A stretch of 46,120 bases of DNA from Candidatus Saccharimonadota bacterium (GCA_017447485.1 JAFSNI010000024.1:1-46120), one strand, 5' to 3'; shown: positions 3,779 to 13,207, numbered from the stretch's first letter. Numbers and translations: made by a program. The notes: generated by a model not told the origin, from the sequence alone.

Positions 3779-4257
3779 CTCACCACCCTTGCAATCGCAT
3801 TCTCTCCCATCTTAAACATCACCTGCGCTCGCGCTTCAGTCTCAAATTTGTCATAAATCCGCCCCGCCGACCGCGTCCCCCGCACCACCGTTTCCACCGA
3901 ATTCGCCACCGTCATCGCCTTTTCATCCAGCACCTCGCCGCTCAAAACATCAATCTTCTGCGCCGCAATCGCCTCATCATCAGTCTCATTCCCATAATCT
4001 TTCTTCAAAATCACATAATCCCCGACATCCACGCCGCCAGCACCAACCAGCGTCACGTACACTGGCTCCGGCTCCCGCGTCACATCCTGCGCCAGATATA
4101 GCCTCTGGATGTCTTCCGTCAAACATTTCTGTGGCTTCGTCCGCCCGTTTAGCCACGAATTCACCGTCGCAAAACTCACCCCCAACTTTGCCGCCAGCTG
4201 TTCCTGCGTCCACCCTGACGCCTTCAGCACCTCTTTTAACATTTTTTGATAATTCAT
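3772..4257 (-). CDS. HTH (XRE-like) protein with uncharacterised C-terminal domain
   Basis: 161 aa. Residues 1-60 form a helix-turn-helix of the XRE/Cro type (key stretch WTQEQLAAKLGVSFATVNSW). The remaining 100 residues are rich in Val, Gly and Asp, include GDYVILKKDYG and end in ARVVRW; I do not recognise this part. A good ribosome site (GAAAGGA) precedes the ATG. It is first of a two-gene operon with the UvrD-like helicase. It is likely a DNA-binding regulator or partner of the helicase; this is inferred from the domain and operon only. Confidence 0.72.
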   Translation of the reverse strand: MNYQKMLKEVLKASGWTQEQLAAKLGVSFATVNSWLNGRTKPQKCLTEDIQRLYLAQDVTREPEPVYVTLVGAGGVDVGDYVILKKDYGNETDDEAIAAQKIDVLSGEVLDEKAMTVANSVETVVRGTRSAGRIYDKFETEARAQVMFKMGENAIARVVRW

Positions 4258-4302
4258 ATTTTCCTTTCAAAACTCTTGCCTTTATAAATATTTGTGTTAT
4301 AC

Positions 4303-5016
4303 TTAAGGCACAGGGGATGCATTCCCCACCCTCGAGGACGCACTTTCGGGATCGTCCTCATTTTTTATCGAAATCTTATCTTTTATGTCCTCAATATTAA
4401 AAAGTTTATACCGCTCAGAAAATTCTCTATTCAACTCTTTTAATCTGGTCGATAACGTATTCTTACCAAAATCTTTAACATAGGGAGTTACCATCATCGT
4501 TATTTTAATTCTTGGATTTTTCATTGCAATCCTTACCGCCTCCGCATAATCTCCATCACAAGAAACAACAATAATATGCCTATCTTTCCTCGCGCGAAAC
4601 GCGACCTCCAGCATCTCCGATGCTAAATACACATCTACATTAGATTTCAATACCCTAGTTCTCGGTAAAACCGTTACAATGTTTTTATGGCCACATTTCT
4701 TACACACAAAACTTCTCTTTACGGCGTCTTTAATATAAGCCTTTCTCTCTAGTGTTTTAATACTATATCCGGCTTCTTTCAATTCTTCCAAAATCTTAAC
4801 CTTACCGCCATCGCCCTTCGCCAAACCCTCATAATAGCTCATTTTTCTTAACTTTGGATATTTTGTTTGAAAATATTGTGCCAATTTGGCAAAGTCAACC
4901 TGAAATCCGCAAGTCTTCAAGCACGCCGCCCGAATATTACTTACATCAATAAAAATATACGTTTCTAAATCCGCGTTTTTCCTCCGTCTTTTTAATATTT
5001 TATTTATTAAAAACAT
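4303..5016 (-). CDS. NYN-domain (LabA/DUF88-like) protein, putative RNase
   Basis: 237 aa from the ATG at 5016. The open frame extends upstream to 5073, but the promoter at 5041-5070 lies inside that extension, and GGAG (5022-5025) precedes the 5016 ATG. The NYN core shows the acidic motifs expected of PIN-like nucleases: YIFIDVSNIR near the N-terminus, SNVDVYLASEM in the middle and VVSCDGDYAEAV. A CKKCGHK pair between them suggests a small zinc-binding insert, although only one CxxC is seen. NYN proteins are known or predicted RNases. It sits between the HTH-helicase pair and an ApeA-like HEPN gene. The family is fairly sure, the substrate unknown. Confidence 0.75.
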   Translation of the reverse strand: MFLINKILKRRRKNADLETYIFIDVSNIRAACLKTCGFQVDFAKLAQYFQTKYPKLRKMSYYEGLAKGDGGKVKILEELKEAGYSIKTLERKAYIKDAVKRSFVCKKCGHKNIVTVLPRTRVLKSNVDVYLASEMLEVAFRARKDRHIIVVSCDGDYAEAVRIAMKNPRIKITMMVTPYVKDFGKNTLSTRLKELNREFSERYKLFNIEDIKDKISIKNEDDPESASSRVGNASPVP

Positions 5017-5040
5017 TTTTACTCCACTATCACTACAACC

Positions 5041-5070
5041 ATAATACACTCTCGCCGCCCAAAAAGTCAA
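5041..5070 (-). promoter_or_regulatory. Promoter of the NYN gene
   Basis: Minus strand TTGACT (5065-5070), an 18-bp spacer and TATTAT (5041-5046). The predicted start near 5034 leaves an 18-base leader with GGAG before the ATG at 5016. The promoter decides the gene start. Confidence 0.7.
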
Positions 5071-5127
5071 CACTTTTTTATAAAATCATCAAAAATAATC
5101 TGTAAAAACTTTTATAAAATAAAAACT

Positions 5128-6381
5128 CTAGTTACTCCACTCCGTCGACCAACGCCAAATCATAATTTGCGTTGTCATGGCTAACCATATATAATAACGC
5201 CCAAAATTTCCCCCAATTTCTTTTTTCATGGCCCCAAAAGCCCCTCGGTGCGAAAGGTTATTGCGCACTTTGTGTGAAATTGTTACACACTCTTCAAAAG
5301 TCAACTGGCCGTCTATCGCGCCATCTTTATAACCAGCTTTTTCGCATAGACGCCTAATTTTAGTACTAAAATCCACTCTATCATTCACAAAATCGCTTTT
5401 GGTGCGAATAATCGTCTTTAACTTAGTATTGCTAATGTTGTCTCCGCCATCTTTAATGCATCTCTTCAACAATTTCACCATCTCGTCATATTGAGCTTCA
5501 CGCTCCGCTCTACTCTTCTCCCCCTCAAAACACAAAGTATATACTAAATCCAACGCGACCAATAAATTCTTAAACCTATCTTCCAAGAACCCAGTTCTAT
5601 CACTATACGACAGTATAAAACTTCGCCACAATTTCAACGGCCCCAACTCTTTACCTAAAATCCCGTTTAGAAGCCCTGCTGGTGCTCCGCCCTTATTCAT
5701 AATCACTGCACTAAAACCGCCACTGAACTTCTCGGTATATTTATAAATAGGTTCCCTGCCAGATTCAATCTCTTTGCAGAAAACACTCTCCCCCTCTTTC
5801 CAAATCGCAAAAACCGACTTTTCCACAACCGGTCGCCAAAACGACAAACTCATACCCAAATTAATTTTATCCACTATCCCACTCACTCTGTCTCCTCCGC
5901 ACAAAATATCGCCTTTTTTCTTAAAAATCTCGACATTCAGCCACTTTGTCGTAGTCTTTTTCCAACCCATCTCAACAACATTATGATCAATCAGTTTCGT
6001 CAGGCAAGCCGTCTCTTCATTCAGTTCAATCATCTTATCATCTATCACCCCAGCCAACGCCGTCGAAGGGTATTCAATCTGAATTTTCTCTATAAAATTA
6101 CCATTCACATATTCATCTGGCAAAACAACCCCATTTTCACTAATCGCCCAAGCTACCTCATATTCTTTTTCCGCAAAAAAGTCCACGGTATTCTTATCGT
6201 CTATCTTAATTGCAAATTCTTTATCACCAAAAGTACTGATCGTATGCACGAATTTATTCTTGTCAAACCTGCCAAATACCTTCACTTTCATCGCGCCTTC
6301 ATTTTCCAACCACAAAGTCCCGGTAATCCCCCCTTGGACTACGACCATCGGCTGCTTTTTCAACATTTCTCGCAATTTCAT
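5128..6381 (-). CDS. ApeA-like HEPN-domain protein, putative abortive-infection nuclease
   Basis: 417 aa from the ATG at 6381. An ATG at 6387 is in frame but abuts the -10 box, so the leaderless start at 6381 is preferred. The N-terminal half is beta-rich with a G-x-L-W and KVFGRF pattern like the ApeA N-terminal domain. The C-terminal quarter holds HKVRNNLSHRG near residues 370-380, giving the R-x4-H signature of HEPN RNases (about R373 and H378). ApeA-type HEPN proteins are established anti-phage proteins in other bacteria. The gene is a single unit next to the terminator of the surface cassette. HEPN membership is good; ApeA kinship and the defence role are inference. Confidence 0.62.
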   Translation of the reverse strand: MKLREMLKKQPMVVVQGGITGTLWLENEGAMKVKVFGRFDKNKFVHTISTFGDKEFAIKIDDKNTVDFFAEKEYEVAWAISENGVVLPDEYVNGNFIEKIQIEYPSTALAGVIDDKMIELNEETACLTKLIDHNVVEMGWKKTTTKWLNVEIFKKKGDILCGGDRVSGIVDKINLGMSLSFWRPVVEKSVFAIWKEGESVFCKEIESGREPIYKYTEKFSGGFSAVIMNKGGAPAGLLNGILGKELGPLKLWRSFILSYSDRTGFLEDRFKNLLVALDLVYTLCFEGEKSRAEREAQYDEMVKLLKRCIKDGGDNISNTKLKTIIRTKSDFVNDRVDFSTKIRRLCEKAGYKDGAIDGQLTFEECVTISHKVRNNLSHRGAFGAMKKEIGGNFGRYYIWLAMTTQIMIWRWSTEWSN

Positions 6382-6387
6382 TACCAT

Positions 6388-6396
6388 ATTATACCA
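6388..6396 (-). promoter_or_regulatory. Extended -10 promoter, leaderless HEPN gene
   Basis: TGGTATAAT ends 6 bases before the ATG at 6381, so the predicted transcript begins at the start codon. No good -35 box is seen. Confidence 0.65.
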
Positions 6397-6397
6397 T

Positions 6398-6426
6398 AAA
6401 ATACCGCCCCTCTCAGGACGGTATTT
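6398..6426 (-). terminator. Terminator of the left surface cassette
   Basis: The minus-strand RNA forms an 11-bp stem (arms 6416-6426 and 6398-6408, one G-U pair) followed by a T-rich run. It lies 15 bases after the stop at 6442 and directly before the HEPN promoter. Confidence 0.75.
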
Positions 6427-6441
6427 CGTTGTATATTTATA

Positions 6442-7407
6442 TTATTCTGTTTCAATTCTTTTTCTACTGTTTTTCCTGGACTTGGCGCGCATGACGAAAT
6501 AAATGGCAACAACTGCAATCGCAAAGATGATTATAAACAGCAGCCAAATCGGGCATTTAATTACCATCTTGGAGACTTGCTGGGTGACGCCTTCAAATTC
6601 TACCGTGTAAACTACATTGAAAATACCGAAAGTCGGGGTATTGTCCATAACTGTTTTACGAAGCAAAGTCCTATCTGGTAAAATTACGGCACTAGCCGGA
6701 TCTTCCTCATTAGTGTATAGCTCTTCATCTGAAAATAGAGGGTAAACTTTTAAAGTATAATATGCACGACTGTGCACATTGCCGGTATTTTTTATAGACG
6801 CCGTTCCAGCAATGTCGCCAGATAAAATAAAGCCAGGTACATCTACATTGATTATTTCACCTTGTCTGATGGTCTTGCCAGTGACTTCGGCATAAACTAA
6901 ATGTCCGATGGCAATTTTCTCGCCAAGAGCTGCACCATTTCCGCTCTCATCGCCATTACTAATAGCTGCGGATGATACTCTAATATCTGCATATTGACCA
7001 CCAGCCGGTGCATCTGCTGGAACATTAATTGTAAATAATATTTCCGTGACATCATTCGGCGACAATGTTCCACTTTTTGGCGAATCTATCGTTATCCAAT
7101 CAGTGATCAGATTTCTGCTGCTAGCCACGCCAAAAACATTATTATAATTCTCATCTACATAAAAAGCTTGCACATCTACTTCATATTTAATATCTACAGT
7201 TTGCGTTCCTGGACAGGAAATTTTAAAAGAACTTCGATAAGTATCTCCCGGATTTAAAACAATATCTTCCCTTAGCGGAGAAAGCGTAAAGCCTGCTGAG
7301 CCTTCCGCAATTGCAAATGTCTTAGGTACTCCTATGGTTAAAATTGTAAAAGTGGCTATAGCAATAATAGCCAACATGTGCCAAAATTGTTTTAAATTTT
7401 TTTTCAT
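6442..7407 (-). CDS. Cassette L gene 3: secreted DUF916/WxL-interacting-like membrane protein
   Basis: 321 aa from the ATG at 7407, which has AAGGAG in front; an in-frame ATG at 7422 overlaps the stop of the previous gene. The protein has a signal peptide (hydrophobic residues about 12-32), an extracellular beta-sandwich region beginning FTLSPLREDIVLNPGDTY, a long middle part with DAPAGGQYADIRV, then one membrane helix near the C-terminus (WLLFIIIFAIAVVAIYF) and a basic tail rich in Arg and Lys. The layout resembles DUF916-type cell-surface complex proteins of Gram-positives. Its homologue is at 10971-11939 (322 aa). The C-terminal 60 residues of the two are almost identical in protein but differ at many silent sites, while the outer domains have diverged. 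Confidence 0.75.
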   Translation of the reverse strand: MKKNLKQFWHMLAIIAIATFTILTIGVPKTFAIAEGSAGFTLSPLREDIVLNPGDTYRSSFKISCPGTQTVDIKYEVDVQAFYVDENYNNVFGVASSRNLITDWITIDSPKSGTLSPNDVTEILFTINVPADAPAGGQYADIRVSSAAISNGDESGNGAALGEKIAIGHLVYAEVTGKTIRQGEIINVDVPGFILSGDIAGTASIKNTGNVHSRAYYTLKVYPLFSDEELYTNEEDPASAVILPDRTLLRKTVMDNTPTFGIFNVVYTVEFEGVTQQVSKMVIKCPIWLLFIIIFAIAVVAIYFVMRAKSRKNSRKRIETE

Positions 7408-7418
7408 TAGTCTCCTTT

Positions 7419-7994
7419 TCATGACTCTTCGTTAATAATTTTGCAATTAAAACCTTTGTTCTCATAGAGGTATTTTATCTCATCAAAAGTATATGTTCCA
7501 TCTGTGCTAGTTTTTTCAAGCATAAAATATTTTGCACTTTGATTATTGATTTCTGATTTTTTAGCATATAGACTCATTTTTAGGCTGTCCTGAAGCTTAG
7601 AGAAACTCATTCCTAAACTTTCAGCATCCAAATCATTATCGGCAAAACTCAGTCCCATAGAAGCATGATTAATGGCCTCACTACTAGCAATCGCATTTTC
7701 TGTATCATAGTATAGCGTGTTTATAAGCGCTATTGAATACAGATTGTCGTTATTAAAAATAATGTTAATCTTAATATTCTTTTTAGTGGATTTATCGTAA
7801 GTAAAAAATGGATACGCGAAATTATCAATTTCGCAAGTAATTGATTGTGAAGTTTCCAGTTCAGGCCAATTGCCAGATATAGTTGTTTCACCCTTCACTA
7901 AAAACCAAACCAAAAAAATCCCAGCAATCAATACTAGGAAAATTCCAATATACCTAAACCAATCTGTATTCCCACCGTTATAGATTTTCCGCAT
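7419..7994 (-). CDS. Cassette L gene 2: N-anchored exported protein
   Basis: 191 aa. A short cytoplasmic N-terminus, one membrane helix (about residues 14-34, GIFLVLIAGIFLVWFLV) and an outer domain with two cysteines (SITCEID and FNCKI near the end), possibly disulfide-bonded. AAAGGAG precedes the ATG. The stop overlaps an upstream ATG of gene 3 (ATGA). Homologous to 10394-10978, sharing the pattern GE/STT-GN-P-ET and the order of motifs. Family not recognised. It probably forms an envelope complex with the other two cassette products. Confidence 0.72.
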   Translation of the reverse strand: MRKIYNGGNTDWFRYIGIFLVLIAGIFLVWFLVKGETTISGNWPELETSQSITCEIDNFAYPFFTYDKSTKKNIKINIIFNNDNLYSIALINTLYYDTENAIASSEAINHASMGLSFADNDLDAESLGMSFSKLQDSLKMSLYAKKSEINNQSAKYFMLEKTSTDGTYTFDEIKYLYENKGFNCKIINEES

Positions 7995-8033
7995 ATTACT
8001 CCTTTACTTTTATCTTAAACGGCGTCCCCCTAT

Positions 8034-8060
8034 AGAAAAGCCCCTATGTGGGGCCTTTCT
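8034..8060 (-). terminator. Hairpin between cassette L genes 1 and 2
   Basis: 11-bp stem on the minus-strand RNA (arms 8050-8060 and 8034-8044, one G-U pair) with TTTTCTAT on its 3' side. It lies between gene 1 and gene 2 and probably lets only part of the transcripts continue, giving more gene 1 product. The right cassette has a hairpin at the same place. Confidence 0.65.
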
Positions 8061-8075
8061 AGTAGTCGCGTCTAA

Positions 8076-8642
8076 TTAGACCGTAGTACCAGTCAATTCA
8101 TAAACAGCGGCCGAAGCGTTAGTGTATACGCCATATGGCTGGTTGTTTAAAGTGCCGACGGAATACTTTACAGTGAAAGTATCACCCGCAGCTGGAGTTT
8201 CGGAGTCGCTCGTTTTTACAGTTTGCCCAGACGTTACGTATGCAGCTGCGCCGTCAGTAACCAAAGCGGACCATTTGCCGTCGTTTGCGGCAGCGGCGCT
8301 GGTCTTATAAGTGATTTCATCACCACCAGCATCCGTCAAAGTGCCGAAAGTGCCAGTCACGGTGTAACCAGCGGTATCATTGCAGTTGACCGTGAAGGAA
8401 CTCGTACCAAGGTCTTTAAGTTGGCCAGCGAGCATAGTACCAGAGTACGTGCCGCCGTTATAGGCAGCGCTAGTTGCGGCATTGTCACCAGTGGCAGCCG
8501 TACCAGTGCGAGTAAGCGTACAAGACTTCTCGATGGTAACTGTCAACACGTCAGTGACGGTATCATCCACTGCAAACGCACCCAAGACTGGCATCGCTGC
8601 GAGAGCTACAGATGCTGCACCTGCGATTAATGCTTTTTTCAT
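8076..8642 (-). CDS. Cassette L gene 1: small secreted two-cysteine surface protein
   Basis: 188 aa. A clear signal peptide (lysines, an alanine-rich core, likely cleavage after GAFA). The mature part is rich in Thr, Ala and Gly, with one Cys in the motif KSCTLTR and another in FTVNCNDTAGYTVTG, probably a disulfide; the fold is likely all-beta. The first 18 codons, ribosome site and upstream 49 bases form part of a 105-bp inverted repeat shared exactly with the gene at 9722. After that the two proteins diverge strongly but keep both cysteines and the GY-TGTF pattern. This is the promoter-proximal gene and currently faces the consensus promoter at 8715-8743. It is probably an abundant surface or appendage subunit; this role is inferred. 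Confidence 0.8.
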   Translation of the reverse strand: MKKALIAGAASVALAAMPVLGAFAVDDTVTDVLTVTIEKSCTLTRTGTAATGDNAATSAAYNGGTYSGTMLAGQLKDLGTSSFTVNCNDTAGYTVTGTFGTLTDAGGDEITYKTSAAAANDGKWSALVTDGAAAYVTSGQTVKTSDSETPAAGDTFTVKYSVGTLNNQPYGVYTNASAAVYELTGTTV

Positions 8643-8691
8643 AATTTTTCTTCTCCTCTGCTATAAGCAGAATTAACTTATATTTGTGTTA
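8587..8691 (-). repeat. Inverted repeat, left arm (105 bp)
   Basis: Perfectly inverted copy of 9673-9777 (position x pairs with 18364 minus x). It spans part of the 5' leader, a small CTGC-TTATA-GCAG palindrome, the ribosome site AGAGGAGAAG, the ATG and the first 18 codons (signal peptide) of the cassette gene. Matching stops sharply at both ends. It is the likely substrate of the recombinase encoded between the arms. Confidence 0.95.
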
Positions 8692-8714
8692 AAATATGAC
8701 CTTTAACATCTTCT

Positions 8715-8743
8715 ATTATACGTAACCGTAATGTGATTGTCAA
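8715..8743 (-). promoter_or_regulatory. Switch promoter, now driving the left cassette
   Basis: Minus strand TTGACA (8738-8743), a 17-bp spacer and TATAAT (8715-8720). The predicted start is near 8708 and gives a leader of about 66 bases that crosses the repeat arm. It is one of the few full -35/-10 consensus promoters in the window and the only one found in the invertible segment. Confidence 0.88.
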
Positions 8744-8754
8744 GCAATTTTTTC

Positions 8755-8797
8755 AAGTTTTTTTAAGTTTTTCCACGTCCCCGTCTTAAACAAACTT
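8755..8797. other. Imperfect inverted repeat after the recombinase gene
   Basis: AAGTTTTTTTAAG (8755-8767) and CTTAAACAAACTT (8785-8797) pair at 12 of 13 positions across a 17-base loop. It sits between the recombinase stop and the switch promoter. It may be a weak terminator separating the two, or a protein-binding site. Confidence 0.4.
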
Positions 8798-8806
8798 TTC
8801 CACAAA

Positions 8807-9640
8807 TTATTCATATTTCTCAAATAATTCTCTTAATTTTCCATCAAATCCATGCAGATATCTCTCAGTTGTCGCAATGCTGGCATGGCCCATCATTTCT
8901 TTAATCTCCGCAATCGAGGCGCCTTTGCTTTGCAGGTTCGTCGCAAAAGAATGGCGTAGCGCATGCGGATAAAAATCTTTAAACCCCGCTTTTAAAAACG
9001 CTCTCTTTAACTTTTTTCTAATCGTGCTCGGCGTCGGCGGCTCGCCATTCAGGGTCTTCCCCCATAAAGAATTTTGAATCTTGTATTTTTTTATAAAATC
9101 TTGAACTTTTTCAAACGTTCCTTTCTTAATATAAACCTCGCGCAGCTTTCGGCCCTTGCCGATAAACTGGATTTTCTGCCACTGAAAATCCGTAACTTTG
9201 AGTTTTGTAATTTCCGCAATCCTCATCCCGGTCTCAAACATAATTTCTATAATGAGCCCAGTTTCCTGATCGGCGGCTTTAATTACTCGCCCAATTTCCT
9301 TCGCAGTATAAAATTTTCGCTCAGTCTTTTTCTCCTTTTGCTTCTGAACCAGGACCGGCTTGAAAGGAATCACCAGCCCAAGCTCCTGATAATATTTGAC
9401 AAAAGAGATGATTGTTGCGCTGTAAGTGTTAATGGAGCGCCCACTGGTTTTATTTTGGACCATTTTGGCGATGTATTGGTTGAAAATGTAGTTTGATAGT
9501 TTATATAAATCCCTTAATCCTGTTTCATCGGCAAAACGAATTAGAGTGTAGCGTTTCGTTCTTAAAGTCACCTCGCTCATTCTTCTAACTTTTTGACAAT
9601 ATGTCAAATAACTTTCAATTTGTTTGTAAATTGCTTTCAT
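8807..9640 (-). CDS. Tyrosine recombinase, putative invertase of the surface switch
   Basis: 277 aa, full length for a XerC/D-type recombinase. An N-terminal SAM-like DNA-binding domain (about 1-100) precedes the catalytic domain with all expected residues: R140 (ETGMRIAEI), a lysine in IGKGRK (162 or 165), H226 and R229 (HALRH), H252 (GHAS) and nucleophile Y261 (ERYLHG). AAAGGAG precedes the ATG. The gene lies alone between 105-bp inverted repeats that start two surface operons; no phage genes or att-tRNA are nearby, so an on-site invertase is the best reading. Cell-wide Xer function is less likely because of this setting. Confidence 0.9.
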   Translation of the reverse strand: MKAIYKQIESYLTYCQKVRRMSEVTLRTKRYTLIRFADETGLRDLYKLSNYIFNQYIAKMVQNKTSGRSINTYSATIISFVKYYQELGLVIPFKPVLVQKQKEKKTERKFYTAKEIGRVIKAADQETGLIIEIMFETGMRIAEITKLKVTDFQWQKIQFIGKGRKLREVYIKKGTFEKVQDFIKKYKIQNSLWGKTLNGEPPTPSTIRKKLKRAFLKAGFKDFYPHALRHSFATNLQSKGASIAEIKEMMGHASIATTERYLHGFDGKLRELFEKYE

Positions 9641-9672
9641 TTCACTCCTTTAAGCTTAATTTTGAAATATAC

Positions 9673-9777
9673 TAACACAAATATAAGTTAATTCTGCTTA
9701 TAGCAGAGGAGAAGAAAAATTATGAAAAAAGCATTAATCGCAGGTGCAGCATCTGTAGCTCTCGCAGCGATGCCAGT
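9673..9777 (+). repeat. Inverted repeat, right arm (105 bp)
   Basis: Perfect inverted copy of 8587-8691. It covers leader, ribosome site, ATG (9722) and 18 codons of the right cassette gene 1. It contains a partly symmetric TAAC-(10)-GTTA block (9673-9690), a possible core site for a tyrosine recombinase; this last point is a guess. Confidence 0.95.
9697..9705 (-). promoter_or_regulatory. Possible recombinase promoter inside the repeat
   Basis: TGCTATAAG on the minus strand is an extended -10 box with 5 of 6 core matches; transcription would start near 9690, about 50 bases before the recombinase ATG. Because it lies in the repeat, a copy would face the recombinase in either orientation. No convincing -35 box. 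Confidence 0.4.
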
Positions 9778-10327
9778 GGTTGGGGTGTTTGCAGTAGACA
9801 ATACTGCCATCACTGATAATTTCTCGCTTACAATCGCCCCGACATGCGCGTTGTCTCGTGCCGCAACCAATACTGATGCAACTTTAAGTGGTGTAACAGC
9901 TGGCGAATCCGTAACGGCTGCAGCCACATACACTAAATCTGATGCCGTAGCTAACCAAAAATATACAATGGGCACAAGTACGCTTAAAGTAATCTGCAAT
10001 AACCAGACTGGTTATAAGCTTACTGGCACCTTCAGCCCCCTCACTAACAGCTTAAAAGCGTCAGATGGTAGCGACATTACTATCCCTTACAGTGCTGCCG
10101 CCGTTGAAGCCGGTACTGCGGGTTGGACTGCTTACACTAGCTCTAATTATTATACGAGCGCTGCTTCTGGCAATATCTTATCTAGCAACACAGTTTCGGC
10201 CGCTACTGGCGACACGAAAGCTGTCACTTACGATGTGGCAACTGCTTCAAACCAGGCTGCTGGGACCTACACAGGCACCGCAAGCTACAATCTAGCTGCA
10301 AATGCCGCCTACACTTCAGGGTCTTAG
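9722..10327 (+). CDS. Cassette R gene 1: small secreted two-cysteine surface protein
   Basis: 201 aa. The signal peptide starts with the same 18 residues as the left cassette gene, encoded by identical DNA, with likely cleavage after GVFA. The mature part is Thr/Ser/Ala-rich with Cys in APTCALSR and KVICNNQTGYKLTG, matching the two-cysteine pattern of the left protein, but otherwise the sequence is quite different. It is first of three genes. In the present orientation no consensus promoter is seen upstream, so it may be silent until the segment inverts. It is probably an alternative surface subunit. Confidence 0.8.
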   Translation: MKKALIAGAASVALAAMPVVGVFAVDNTAITDNFSLTIAPTCALSRAATNTDATLSGVTAGESVTAAATYTKSDAVANQKYTMGTSTLKVICNNQTGYKLTGTFSPLTNSLKASDGSDITIPYSAAAVEAGTAGWTAYTSSNYYTSAASGNILSSNTVSAATGDTKAVTYDVATASNQAAGTYTGTASYNLAANAAYTSGS

Positions 10328-10339
10328 CCTGAACATCTT

Positions 10340-10379
10340 AGTAGCCCCCCCCAAAAAAAGAGGGGGGAGCTACTGATTT
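10340..10379 (+). terminator. Strong hairpin between cassette R genes 1 and 2
   Basis: The arms AGTAGC plus a C-run (10340 onward) and a G-run plus GCTACT (to 10374) form a long GC-rich stem, followed by GATTTTTA. It mirrors the hairpin in the left cassette and probably lowers expression of genes 2 and 3 relative to gene 1. Confidence 0.75.
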
Positions 10380-10393
10380 TTAGGTAGGCATAA

Positions 10394-10978
10394 GTGAGCG
10401 AAAGTGGAGGTATGAAAAAAATTAATATAGCTAACTTAACAAGATGGGCAGGAATGACCCTTATTTTTATTGCAATTATATTAACCTTGATATTTTTTAT
10501 GCGAGGATCCACAACAGTTATCGGCAATTACCCAGATCATGAAACTCTCGATTCGCTCTCCTGTGTAGCTGAGGGCATAGACTATCCAACTTATGTTTAC
10601 GATAATTCAAAGCGGAAAAGCACTAAGATCAACGCAACTTTCAACGATAACAAGCTGACGACAATCTCGTTAGTACACATATTATATTATGATGACAGTA
10701 GAAAAGTCACGGATAGCGAAGCTTTGAATCACGCTGCAGTAAATATCGACTCACAAAATGCAGATATCTTTAGCGCACACTATTCCAAATTTTCCGATGC
10801 AATGTCAATGACCATGTACGCTGAACTGAAAGATATAACTAATTCTACAAAAAAATACATGATGTTAAATTTAATATCTGCGGATAATTTGACAAAGGAA
10901 TCCGTAAAATGGAACTATGAAACTCAAGGATTTGTCTGTAATATTAGCAAAATTAATGAAGGAGCACAAAGTGAATAA
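10394..10978 (+). CDS. Cassette R gene 2: N-anchored exported protein
   Basis: 194 aa from GTG 10394, which has a weak TAGG ribosome site; the ATG at 10412 (188 aa) is an alternative. One membrane helix near residues 20-37 (TLIFIAIILTLIFFM), then an outer domain with Cys in LSCVAEG and GFVCNIS, the same layout as the left homologue at 7419-7994 (shared TTV/ISGN-P-ET region and SEALNHA/ SEAINHA motif). Its 3' end overlaps the GTG start of gene 3 by 8 bases. Function unknown; likely a partner in a surface complex. Confidence 0.72.
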   Translation: MSESGGMKKINIANLTRWAGMTLIFIAIILTLIFFMRGSTTVIGNYPDHETLDSLSCVAEGIDYPTYVYDNSKRKSTKINATFNDNKLTTISLVHILYYDDSRKVTDSEALNHAAVNIDSQNADIFSAHYSKFSDAMSMTMYAELKDITNSTKKYMMLNLISADNLTKESVKWNYETQGFVCNISKINEGAQSE

Positions 10979-11939
10979 GCTATCAAAATTCATAAAATTA
11001 GTCATTGCCGGAAGTCTGCTTTTACTTTCAGTATTATTATTTAGCCCAATATTCAAGGTTAAAGCTTTAGAAAATGGCAACTATGTACCAGCCCTCTCAG
11101 TCTCGCCTATGGCCGAAAGTATCGTTTTAAACCCAGGTGATACATACTCAAGCTCAATCAAAGTTAGCTATCCACAAAACGCAAGCAGTAGCACGCACTA
11201 CAAAGTTGCGATTCAGCCATTTTACGTCGACGAAAATTACAATAACGTCTACGAAAAACTCGACAATTACAGTTTAATCGTGGATTGGGTTAACTTTGAT
11301 TCTCCAGAAACTGACGAAGTAAAACCAGGCGAAATCAAAGAAATCTACTATACTTTTCGCATCCCATCAGATGCCCCGGCGGGCGGTCAATATTTTGCTA
11401 TTACCGTCGCATCTGACACTTCAGAGACAGAGATTAAAGGCGACGCAATCAATGTCACAGAAATACTTTCCGTTTCGCATCTTGTTTTCGTAGAAATCAC
11501 CGGCACCACCATACGGCAAGGCGACATCACCAGTATTAATGTACCAAGTTTCATATTATCAGGAGACGTATCCGGATCTTCTACCATAAAAAACACTGGC
11601 AACGTGCATAGCGATGCAACTTACAAATTACAAGTGTTCCCATTGTTCTCCAATGAAGAAGTATACACGAACGAAGAAAAACCAGACATAAGAAGAATTA
11701 TGCCAGATAGATCATTTTATAACGAAACCATTTGGTCCGACACCCCCGCTTTTGGCATCTTCAATGTCGTTTACACAGTGGAATTTGAGGGTGTTACCCA
11801 GCAGGTTTCCAAAATGGTCATTAAATGCCCGATCTGGCTCCTCTTTATTATTATCTTCGCTATCGCGGCCATCATCATTTACTTCGTCATGCGCGCCAAA
11901 TCTCGCAAAAACAGCCGCAAACGCATCGAAACCGAATAA
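10971..11939 (+). CDS. Cassette R gene 3: DUF916/WxL-interacting-like membrane protein
   Basis: 322 aa from the GTG at 10971, which has AAGGAG (10959-10964) at good spacing; an earlier in-frame ATG at 10917 lies deep inside gene 2 and is rejected. Signal peptide (about 10-33), outer beta-rich region beginning LSVSPMAESIVLNPGDTY, DAPAGGQYFAITV in the middle, a membrane helix near the C-terminus and a basic tail. Homologous over its full length to 6442-7407 (321 aa), nearly identical over the last 60 residues including FEGVTQQVSKMVIKCPIW. The conserved tail suggests docking to the same cell component from both cassettes. Confidence 0.78.
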   Translation: MNKLSKFIKLVIAGSLLLLSVLLFSPIFKVKALENGNYVPALSVSPMAESIVLNPGDTYSSSIKVSYPQNASSSTHYKVAIQPFYVDENYNNVYEKLDNYSLIVDWVNFDSPETDEVKPGEIKEIYYTFRIPSDAPAGGQYFAITVASDTSETEIKGDAINVTEILSVSHLVFVEITGTTIRQGDITSINVPSFILSGDVSGSSTIKNTGNVHSDATYKLQVFPLFSNEEVYTNEEKPDIRRIMPDRSFYNETIWSDTPAFGIFNVVYTVEFEGVTQQVSKMVIKCPIWLLFIIIFAIAAIIIYFVMRAKSRKNSRKRIETE

Positions 11940-11947
11940 TACAACCA

Positions 11948-11982
11948 AGGGCTCAATTTTATGAGCCCTCTCCGTATTTTTT
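11948..11982 (+). terminator. Terminator of the right surface cassette
   Basis: AGGGCTCA (11948-11955) pairs with TGAGCCCT (11962-11969), followed by a T-run at 11976-11982. It also covers the 3' end of the convergent gene 11959-12333. Confidence 0.8.
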
Positions 11983-12333
11983 CATAGCGCTGATAAAAGC
12001 TTCTTTATTCTTCCCGCGCCCGACAGAAAACCACTTTGCCAACATCATGAAGCCAATCGCAATAGATAAAAACGTCGCAATCCAAAATATCGTGCTTAAG
12101 TTTAAATTAATACCAAAAATATTTTGCGTCCTATCAGGATCGCAAGTTGAAGCTGCGATAAAAAACGTTACCGAATAGCCAAACGGACTTAGCGCCGTGG
12201 ATAATTTTGGCGCCTCAACAAAGTCGTGATAAATATTTTCGGCCTTTGATACACTGATGCCAATAGTCTTGTCACTCGTATTGTCATAGTCCACTGGTTG
12301 TGAACTACTCAATATAATCTTCTTATTTCTCAC
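11959..12333 (-). CDS. Small membrane protein, two predicted helices
   Basis: 124 aa, no family recognised. A polar N-terminus, then hydrophobic stretches near residues 52-62 (YSVTFFIAAS) and 82-102 (IFWIATFLSIAIGFMML), and a basic tail. The start overlaps the end of 12323-12706 by 11 bases, so the two form an operon convergent with the right cassette. Any link with the cassette is only positional. Confidence 0.6.
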   Translation of the reverse strand: MRNKKIILSSSQPVDYDNTSDKTIGISVSKAENIYHDFVEAPKLSTALSPFGYSVTFFIAASTCDPDRTQNIFGINLNLSTIFWIATFLSIAIGFMMLAKWFSVGRGKNKEAFISAMKKYGEGS

Positions 12334-12706
12334 AATTCTTCTCCTTCTCCAAATACACAGTAATATCTAAAATTGGCAACCCATCCTTTGGTTTACTCAT
12401 GGCAAACAACGTCAAAATGTTTCGATCATTATACTTGCCGACATTTATCGGCGTTTTCACGTAACTTCCTAACTCTGTCCCAAAGTTGATCATCACAAAT
12501 TCAATAGTAAATTTGTCATCTTTCTCGATAGGGCGAAACTTCACATCCGTTGCTCCGCCATCAAAGTTTATATTAAAGGCAAAATTAATCGTCTCGCCAT
12601 CCGGCATCTTCACCGGAACCATCAAATCGCCACATTTTGCCATATGAATTCGGTTATTATAAATCAATTCCAAATCCTCATTGACTATTCTGCTATATTG
12701 TGCCAT
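12323..12706 (-). CDS. Hypothetical soluble protein, beta-rich
   Basis: 127 aa with no signal peptide or membrane helix. The alternating hydrophobic pattern and the segment FVMINFGTELGSYVKTP recall DUF6864-type proteins, but this is a weak resemblance from memory. The AAAAGGAG ribosome site and an extended -10 promoter (12749-12757) support expression. It is first of a two-gene operon with a small membrane protein. Confidence 0.6.
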   Translation of the reverse strand: MAQYSRIVNEDLELIYNNRIHMAKCGDLMVPVKMPDGETINFAFNINFDGGATDVKFRPIEKDDKFTIEFVMINFGTELGSYVKTPINVGKYNDRNILTLFAMSKPKDGLPILDITVYLEKEKNCEK

Positions 12707-12748
12707 TGCACTCCTTTTTTATCTTTATCACTCTACCCACTCGCCCCC

Positions 12749-12757
12749 ATTATACCA
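12749..12757 (-). promoter_or_regulatory. Extended -10 promoter (TGGTATAAT) of the 12706 operon
   Basis: TGGTATAAT on the minus strand, with a leader of about 36 bases containing AAGGAG before the ATG at 12706. Confidence 0.65.
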
Positions 12758-12883
12758 TACGATATCAATCTACCTAAATTTTATAAAACGGATAAGCCCC
12801 GCCAAAATGCAAGCCTACTACGACCAATTCGTCTCCCTTGTCCGCTAATAACTCGCCAGCCCCTCGCAACCTACACCCAAAAG

Positions 12884-12892
12884 TGTTATAAT
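12884..12892 (+). promoter_or_regulatory. Extended -10 promoter (TGTTATAAT)
   Basis: TGTTATAAT, with a second overlapping TATAAT at 12892-12897. Transcription would begin near 12899-12905, inside the long open frame, so the true start of the following gene must lie downstream of it. Confidence 0.6.
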
Positions 12893-12946
12893 ATAATCAC
12901 GAACATCTTATCTTATTCTAAAGGTGTCGAAAAACTCGTCGACCCT

Positions 12947-13207
12947 ATGATGGTCGGCAAAACCCACTATCTTCAAACCAAACTTAAAAAACTCCCCGTC
13001 TACCTCCAACGCAAAATCATCAAATCCGCCACCAAAACCACTGGCCACTTCGGCGCCGTACTCGACAAAGTCCTTACCTTCCCCTTCGCCCAACATATGC
13101 TCTCCGACGCTCCCGGCGTCCACACTCATTATGGTAGCGAAGCTGCTTTAAGAAAAGCGGTCGAATCTGTCGATTTTTCCAAAATCAAAACTCTCGGCTC
13201 AAAATAA
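12947..13207 (+). CDS. Small basic hypothetical protein, start uncertain
   Basis: 86 aa from the ATG at 12947. The frame is open from 12644, but the promoter at 12884-12897 rules out the earlier part. Coding-like sequence continues back to about 12905 (ATC), right where transcription should begin, so an ATC start of a leaderless mRNA is possible; no ribosome site precedes the 12947 ATG. The product is rich in Lys, His and Thr with KTHYLQTKLKKLP near the N-terminus. No family recognised. The end lies 9 bp from the convergent nuclease gene. Confidence 0.5.
   Translation: MMVGKTHYLQTKLKKLPVYLQRKIIKSATKTTGHFGAVLDKVLTFPFAQHMLSDAPGVHTHYGSEAALRKAVESVDFSKIKTLGSK

Follow-up and report, generated by a model that had tools for sequence, protein, structure and literature searches.

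The locus at the centre of this analysis lies in a 46,120-nt stretch of DNA from a Candidatus Saccharimonadota bacterium (GCA_017447485.1 JAFSNI010000024.1:1-46120; hereafter the window), a tiny gut inhabitant with a 612-kb genome in 24 contigs. Its named relatives are Candidatus Saccharibacteria known from metagenomes of goat, yak, and other origin. An earlier note, made from the sequence alone, had read positions 6398-11982 as a promoter switch in which a tyrosine recombinase inverts a promoter between two alternative surface-protein operons.

Organization of the locus

Two homologous three-gene cassettes point outward from a 981-bp centre (8692-9672). They have the same gene order, with identities of 43% for gene 1, 36% for gene 2, and 55% for gene 3. 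The centre carries a gene for a tyrosine recombinase and is bounded by a perfect 105-bp inverted repeat (8587-8691 and 9673-9777), itself nested in a 143-bp pair that is 92% complementary. Each 105-bp arm contains the 5' leader and the signal-peptide codons of its gene 1. A perfect repeat of this length cannot be due to chance, and its position recurs across species. The features are as follows:

6442..7422, minus strand: left cassette gene 3; signal peptide, two immunoglobulin (Ig)-like domains, C-terminal transmembrane helix, and basic tail; fold similar to WxLIP and PapD-like chaperones
7419..7994, minus strand: left cassette gene 2; small protein with an N-terminal hydrophobic segment, no known family
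8076..8642, minus strand: left cassette gene 1; secreted pilin-like surface protein with a signal peptide nearly identical to that of the right gene 1
8587..8691: left arm of the perfect 105-bp inverted repeat; predicted recombination site, with gene 1 leader and signal-peptide codons
8678..8691, minus strand: core site TAACACAAATATAA, promoter-bearing (ON)
8715..8743, minus strand: promoter TTGACA-N17-TATAAT facing the left cassette; in relatives, one site per locus is likewise marked by a promoter in this position
8807..9640, minus strand: tyrosine recombinase, catalytic residues intact
8692..9672: predicted invertible segment with promoter and recombinase gene
9673..9777: right arm of the perfect 105-bp inverted repeat
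9673..9686, plus strand: core site TAACACAAATATAA, promoterless (OFF)
9722..10327, plus strand: right cassette gene 1; pilin-like surface protein
10412..10978, plus strand: right cassette gene 2; probable ATG start at 10412
10974..11939, plus strand: right cassette gene 3; a GTG start near 10974 is probable and preferred over the ATG at 10917

The promoter (8743..8715 on the minus strand), of the sigma-70 type, is the sole 12/12 match among 19 promoter-like sites in the region, where 15.7 such sites are expected by chance. From 8829 to the right cassette, no plus-strand match of at least 9/12 was found. With 23 bp between the end of the -10 box and the repeat, the latter should fall within the transcribed leader. 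The description given in the earlier note therefore stands for the repeats and the centre that they bound, for the paired cassettes, for the single promoter facing left, and for the lack of a comparable promoter facing right.

Strong hairpins separate gene 1 from gene 2 in both cassettes (8017-8075 on the minus strand and 10328-10385 on the plus strand); these may be attenuators favouring gene 1 output.

A core site conserved across the genus

Relatives of the recombinase were found at E<=1e-30 in 38 of the 174 genomes of the genus that were surveyed; 20 of these form a close set, with about 50-59% identity, and the rest are more distant. The same locus type recurs around the close-set recombinases. 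Alignment of the leaders revealed a core of 14-15 bp (TAACACAAATATAA or TAACACAAAATATAA) located shortly upstream of each cassette's gene 1. It is present in 19 of the 20 close-set genomes, the exception being a contig that ends inside the locus (G197), and versions of the locus are carried by at least 16 related species. As an informal control only, an incorrect core pattern gave scattered matches in 10 of the 174 genomes.

One site per locus is preceded by the promoter and by a conserved stretch starting GTTAAAGG, while the remaining sites have unrelated upstream DNA. Each of the 16 species in which the recombinase accompanies two or more sites has exactly one promoter-bearing site. In four genomes that lack the recombinase (G025, G116, G056, and G057), all sites bear a promoter and none is promoterless. 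In all 14 loci where an intact promoter-bearing site and an intact promoterless site lie on one contig, an opposite-strand pair exists, and identity between the two sites ends 0-10 nt inside the core, falling to the chance level of 18-40% beyond it. At its shortest, the tract common to both sites amounts to the core alone (19 bp in G039 and G131, 20 bp in G018, and 21 bp in G191). The location of signal-peptide codons within the repeats, underlined in the earlier note, is hence true of the window but is not needed, given these tracts of 19-21 bp.

The core exists in two lengths, to which G191 adds a base variant. Tyrosine recombinases need equal spacers at both partner sites, which would account for the agreement in core length within all 17 species that have at least two sites; none of 100,000 shuffles, in which kinship was ignored, did as well. 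Core length changed about three times on the recombinase tree. The place of the recombinase gene, inside or outside the inverting piece, changes repeatedly on the same tree; the proposal that the enzyme is carried inside thus holds for the window and for some species but is not general. Among loci with an external recombinase gene, G048 and G196 have the promoter directed at the cassette nearer to that gene, while in G018, G039, G131, and G191 it is directed at the farther one; both promoter orientations thus occur among related loci.

In nearly all leaders, a hairpin adjoins the Shine-Dalgarno sequence (8643-8691 and 9673-9721 in the window; 49 leader sites in relatives) and shows paired changes (CTGC/GCAG, CCAC/GTGG, CTGG/CCAG, CCGTT/AACGG). 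It is probably an RNA element and not part of the DNA site, since the hairpins of the two sites of one locus are unlike in G039, G117, and G196.

Possible traces of recombination at the site

Contig ends in two species fit a de Bruijn graph with an inferred k=141 in which one promoter flank leads into more than one cassette. In G143, 126 nt separate the start of contig C7 from the core of a promoter-bearing site, and the cassettes of C7 and C5 are common for 15 nt from the core start; since 126+15 is 141 exactly, the start of C7 lies precisely 141 nt before the base where the two cassettes (X and Y) diverge. Contig C5 of the same genome breaks off 7 nt short of the core and has the promoter-type flank CATATTT. 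In G035, a promoterless flank (C10) and a promoter flank (C5) break off at one common base, the point of cassette divergence, which lies 75 nt past the start of the core, and contig G119:C5 overlaps G035:C10 by exactly 141 nt before running into a cassette. Further contig ends fit a branch at the site and are not counted for inversion: that of G059:C20 is explained by a different right-cassette allele, and those of G009 and G163 come without a second contig.

Two contigs of the window's own species were found in foreign bins, G119 and G059. G119:C11 matches 4039-8805 and differs from the window at 4 positions in the 4653 bp up to the repeat edge; 114 bp immediately within the repeat contain 8 differences (Fisher p=4e-11). 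G059:C20 (L171, 1-4846, versus window 9655-13041) matches perfectly over 9655-9794, then departs into an entirely different right cassette before resuming its match to the flank at 12802; its cassette body is thus replaced straight after the signal peptide, while the repeat is identical. These patterns make the repeat a recombination boundary between strains and, as judged by sequence comparison, right cassettes are replaced between strains of this species.

A probable promoter inversion switch and its alternatives

Taken together, these data make it highly probable that the locus is a conserved site-specific inversion switch that selects which surface-protein operon is transcribed. The recombinase would pair two core sites, TAACACAAA(A)TATAA, which lie inverted in the 5' leaders of the two cassettes, and would invert the intervening DNA. 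For the window, this piece would comprise the promoter and the recombinase gene, and the promoter would move from the left to the right cassette in an ON/ON exchange. With the crossover inside the leader, the ribosome-binding site, the leader hairpin, and the signal peptide would all stay with each cassette. Inversion is the best reading because of the single promoter-bearing site, the opposite-strand pairing, the identity limited to the core, and the matched core lengths, but also because both promoter orientations occur in relatives and because no comparable flanking repeats surround the relatives of the enzyme in loci without cassettes. The inverting activity proposed in the earlier note is in this way strongly supported by comparison; for the window's species, inversion itself, its catalysis by the window recombinase, and the resulting switch in cassette transcription are predicted from the sequence.

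Several points weigh against this interpretation. Among the 174 genomes, no contig of the window's species with the opposite orientation was found; comparison with related genomes, as suggested earlier, did yield both orientations among related loci, but the two same-species contigs share that of the window. The recombinase frame of G196 is interrupted while both of its sites are retained. The shuffle of core variants ignores phylogeny, and the tree could still accommodate a single length change. As for the assembly breaks, the assembler and k=141 are deduced from exact overlaps, and strains with different cassette alleles could partly explain these breaks, as they do at the right cassette.

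The single orientation seen in the window's species would also be expected of a static inverted duplication, in which the cassettes were duplicated, gene conversion maintains the identity of the repeats, and the recombinase has ceased to invert any DNA. Such conversion could by itself be enough to account for coding sequence in the identical tract of the window; however, G039, G131, and G191 share only 19-21 bp, about the length of the core, with the same variant at both sites, and a static arrangement leaves unexplained both the association of site and enzyme and the assembly breaks at the site. We consider it very unlikely. A slightly smaller probability still is given to cassette exchange or capture, whereby the enzyme, or homologous recombination at the repeats, would mainly swap cassettes between strains and promoter flipping would be secondary. 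The right cassette replaced just after the signal peptide in G059:C20 and the jump in divergence in G119:C11 are in line with such exchange, but the inverted site pair is always present, which favours inversion over excision and integration, and one promoter is kept per locus; exchange through the repeats can be a by-product of the switch.

It is also conceivable that only one cassette is turned ON and OFF, the other being a silent reservoir that stays unexpressed in either orientation. In favour of this, no more than one cassette at a time is provided with a promoter, and some third cassettes have degenerate sites (e.g., site 2 of G035), but both cassettes of the window carry complete leaders, ribosome-binding sites, and intact genes. 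Of the explanations considered, this is the least probable.

The recombinase

The recombinase is a 277-amino-acid protein that matches the Pfam family Phage_integrase (PF00589, E=9e-29). Its residues R140, K162, H226, R229, H252, and Y261 are invariant among relatives, which places it in the tyrosine recombinase superfamily with all catalytic residues, as had been proposed, and not among serine recombinases such as the Hin/Gin invertases. By sequence, it matches XerC-like, XerA, and XerD structures. It scores below the curated cut-offs of the FimB/FimE NCBIfam models (NF007371, 30.8 versus 222 bits; NF007370, 28.2 versus 221) and of the XerC and XerD equivalogs for chromosome-dimer resolvases (136.8 versus 335 and 110.2 versus 329.6 bits, respectively). 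An integron or phage-integrase identity was considered and rejected, as the nearest Xer and integron models are far under cut-off and the cassette-less relatives are without flanking repeats.

In G196 (L111), two TAA codons break the recombinase frame at 7074-7901, and this locus is possibly a locked switch. Two genomes with distant recombinase relatives, G024 (L045) and G043 (L046), have gene 3 cassettes and long inverted repeats spanning the recombinase gene. Their sites differ in sequence from the core, and the two loci constitute another version of the switch. In the viral collection IMG/VR, contigs (L192-L194) encode recombinases 42-43% identical to that of the window, which suggests exchange of the enzyme with Saccharibacteria phages; in that collection, only such distant relatives of the enzyme and no copy of the promoter-site junction were found.

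Products of the cassettes

Gene 1 encodes a secreted, beta-rich protein with two invariant cysteines, for which sequence searches against Pfam and the PDB gave nothing significant. It tentatively resembles archaic chaperone-usher pilins: the model is of moderate quality (predicted local distance difference test, pLDDT, 72), with a best Foldseek E of 0.004 and structural Z of 7-9, hence the caution, and the VIA Z is 7.3 to CsuA/B, an archaic chaperone-usher pilin, versus 8.9 to a plant hexosaminidase domain. For gene 3, the model (pLDDT 82) shows a pair of Ig-like domains and a membrane helix at the C terminus. Structurally, it is closest to WxLIP of Enterococcus faecium (E 2e-12, Z 14.0, root-mean-square deviation 7.9, 228 residues aligned), and it also matches PapD-like chaperones. 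While gene 3 has the two Ig-like domains and transmembrane helix of WxLIP proteins, a shared fold is not proof of membership, and none of 11 gene 3 members has a Pfam-level sequence match to DUF916/DUF3324 (WxLIP). WxLIP has been proposed to bind and stabilize WxL surface proteins (PMC10599100). Gene 3 may anchor or chaperone gene 1. The likeness of genes 1 and 3 to chaperone-usher systems is a fold resemblance only; no outer-membrane usher was found at the locus, the switch consisting of just two three-gene cassettes and the recombinase. Relatives of gene 3 occur in 90 of 247 genomes sampled from the order, so that the cassette type is common and the switch is an elaboration of it.

Relation to known switches

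By locus layout, the closest working analogue is the vpma/Xer1 system of Mycoplasma agalactiae, together with vsp of M. bovis and vsa of M. pulmonis, with which the locus shares a resident tyrosine recombinase gene, sites in the leaders, a shared signal peptide, and one promoter among several surface genes. In vpma, the site lies in the 5' leader, with a 21-bp identical block, a shared signal sequence, one unique promoter that inversion sets in front of one of several surface genes, and the tyrosine recombinase in the locus (PMC2268961); the combination of repeat and signal peptide, presented as unusual in the earlier note, has a precedent there. As in the Vpma, Vsp, and Vsa systems, homologous surface genes have a common leader and signal peptide, with one promoter among the leader sites in 16 of 16 species. 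Unlike in vpma, where inversion is experimentally shown, the cargo is three-gene cassettes instead of single lipoprotein genes, and the surface proteins are different.

In the Hin/fljBA system of Salmonella, the recombinase is a serine enzyme, and one promoter and a repressor control a distant second gene. There too, recombinase and promoter are inside the inverting segment and two surface antigens alternate; the enzyme type and the use of a repressor set it apart. The fimS element acted on by FimB/FimE and the invertible promoters of Bacteroides (e.g., PMC4747536) are ON/OFF switches with the recombinase outside the element and short repeats upstream of the gene. The window locus shares with both a tyrosine recombinase, an invertible promoter, and surface structures as output, but its switch would be ON/ON, the recombinase is inside the element, and the repeats are long and reach into gene 1. 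Lastly, gene 3 has the order of signal peptide, two Ig-like domains, and transmembrane helix found in WxL/WxLIP clusters (PMC10599100), without their sequence signature, and gene 1 has no Pfam match. The locus is set apart from known switches by its cargo of several genes, by being a self-contained piece, and by the phylum in which it occurs.

In the literature searched, whose coverage was incomplete, we found neither promoter inversion nor inversion-driven phase variation described for Saccharibacteria or Patescibacteria, in keeping with the initial impression that the switch had not been described; two papers that pair Patescibacteria with antigenic variation deal with other mechanisms or proteins. 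Cultivated Saccharibacteria live on other bacteria and, to our knowledge, how they vary their surface is largely unknown. The switch may serve attachment to the host bacterium or evasion; if so, a programmed exchange of surface modules would allow an organism with a 0.6-Mb genome to vary how it contacts its host, escapes phages, and evades immunity. Conservation of all three elements (site, promoter, and recombinase) among species means that the idea can be tested on metagenomic reads that already exist.

Variant loci

It is an evenly balanced question whether these loci belong to a genus-wide family of recombinase-driven selectors of surface cassettes in Saccharibacteria, in which modules of a pilin-like subunit and a membrane chaperone or anchor would be exchanged behind one promoter by inversion, with topologies that include promoter flips, flips of cassette pairs, and swaps of gene 1 only. 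If this is correct, the cells of a single clone of an ultrasmall parasite could come to differ in how they contact the host bacterium or phages.

Several loci depart from the layout of the window. In G151 (L173, 9348-12257), a single gene 2-gene 3 pair is preceded by two convergent alternative copies of gene 1 flanked by inverted sites, an arrangement that apparently swaps gene 1 only. Three-site loci are found in G121 (L174, 3075-11284), where the inverted sites could flip a cassette pair instead of the promoter, and in G117 (L103). Finally, the inverting segment of G111 contains a gene-1-like protein with a long low-complexity C-terminal tail (L067, 5817-6809).

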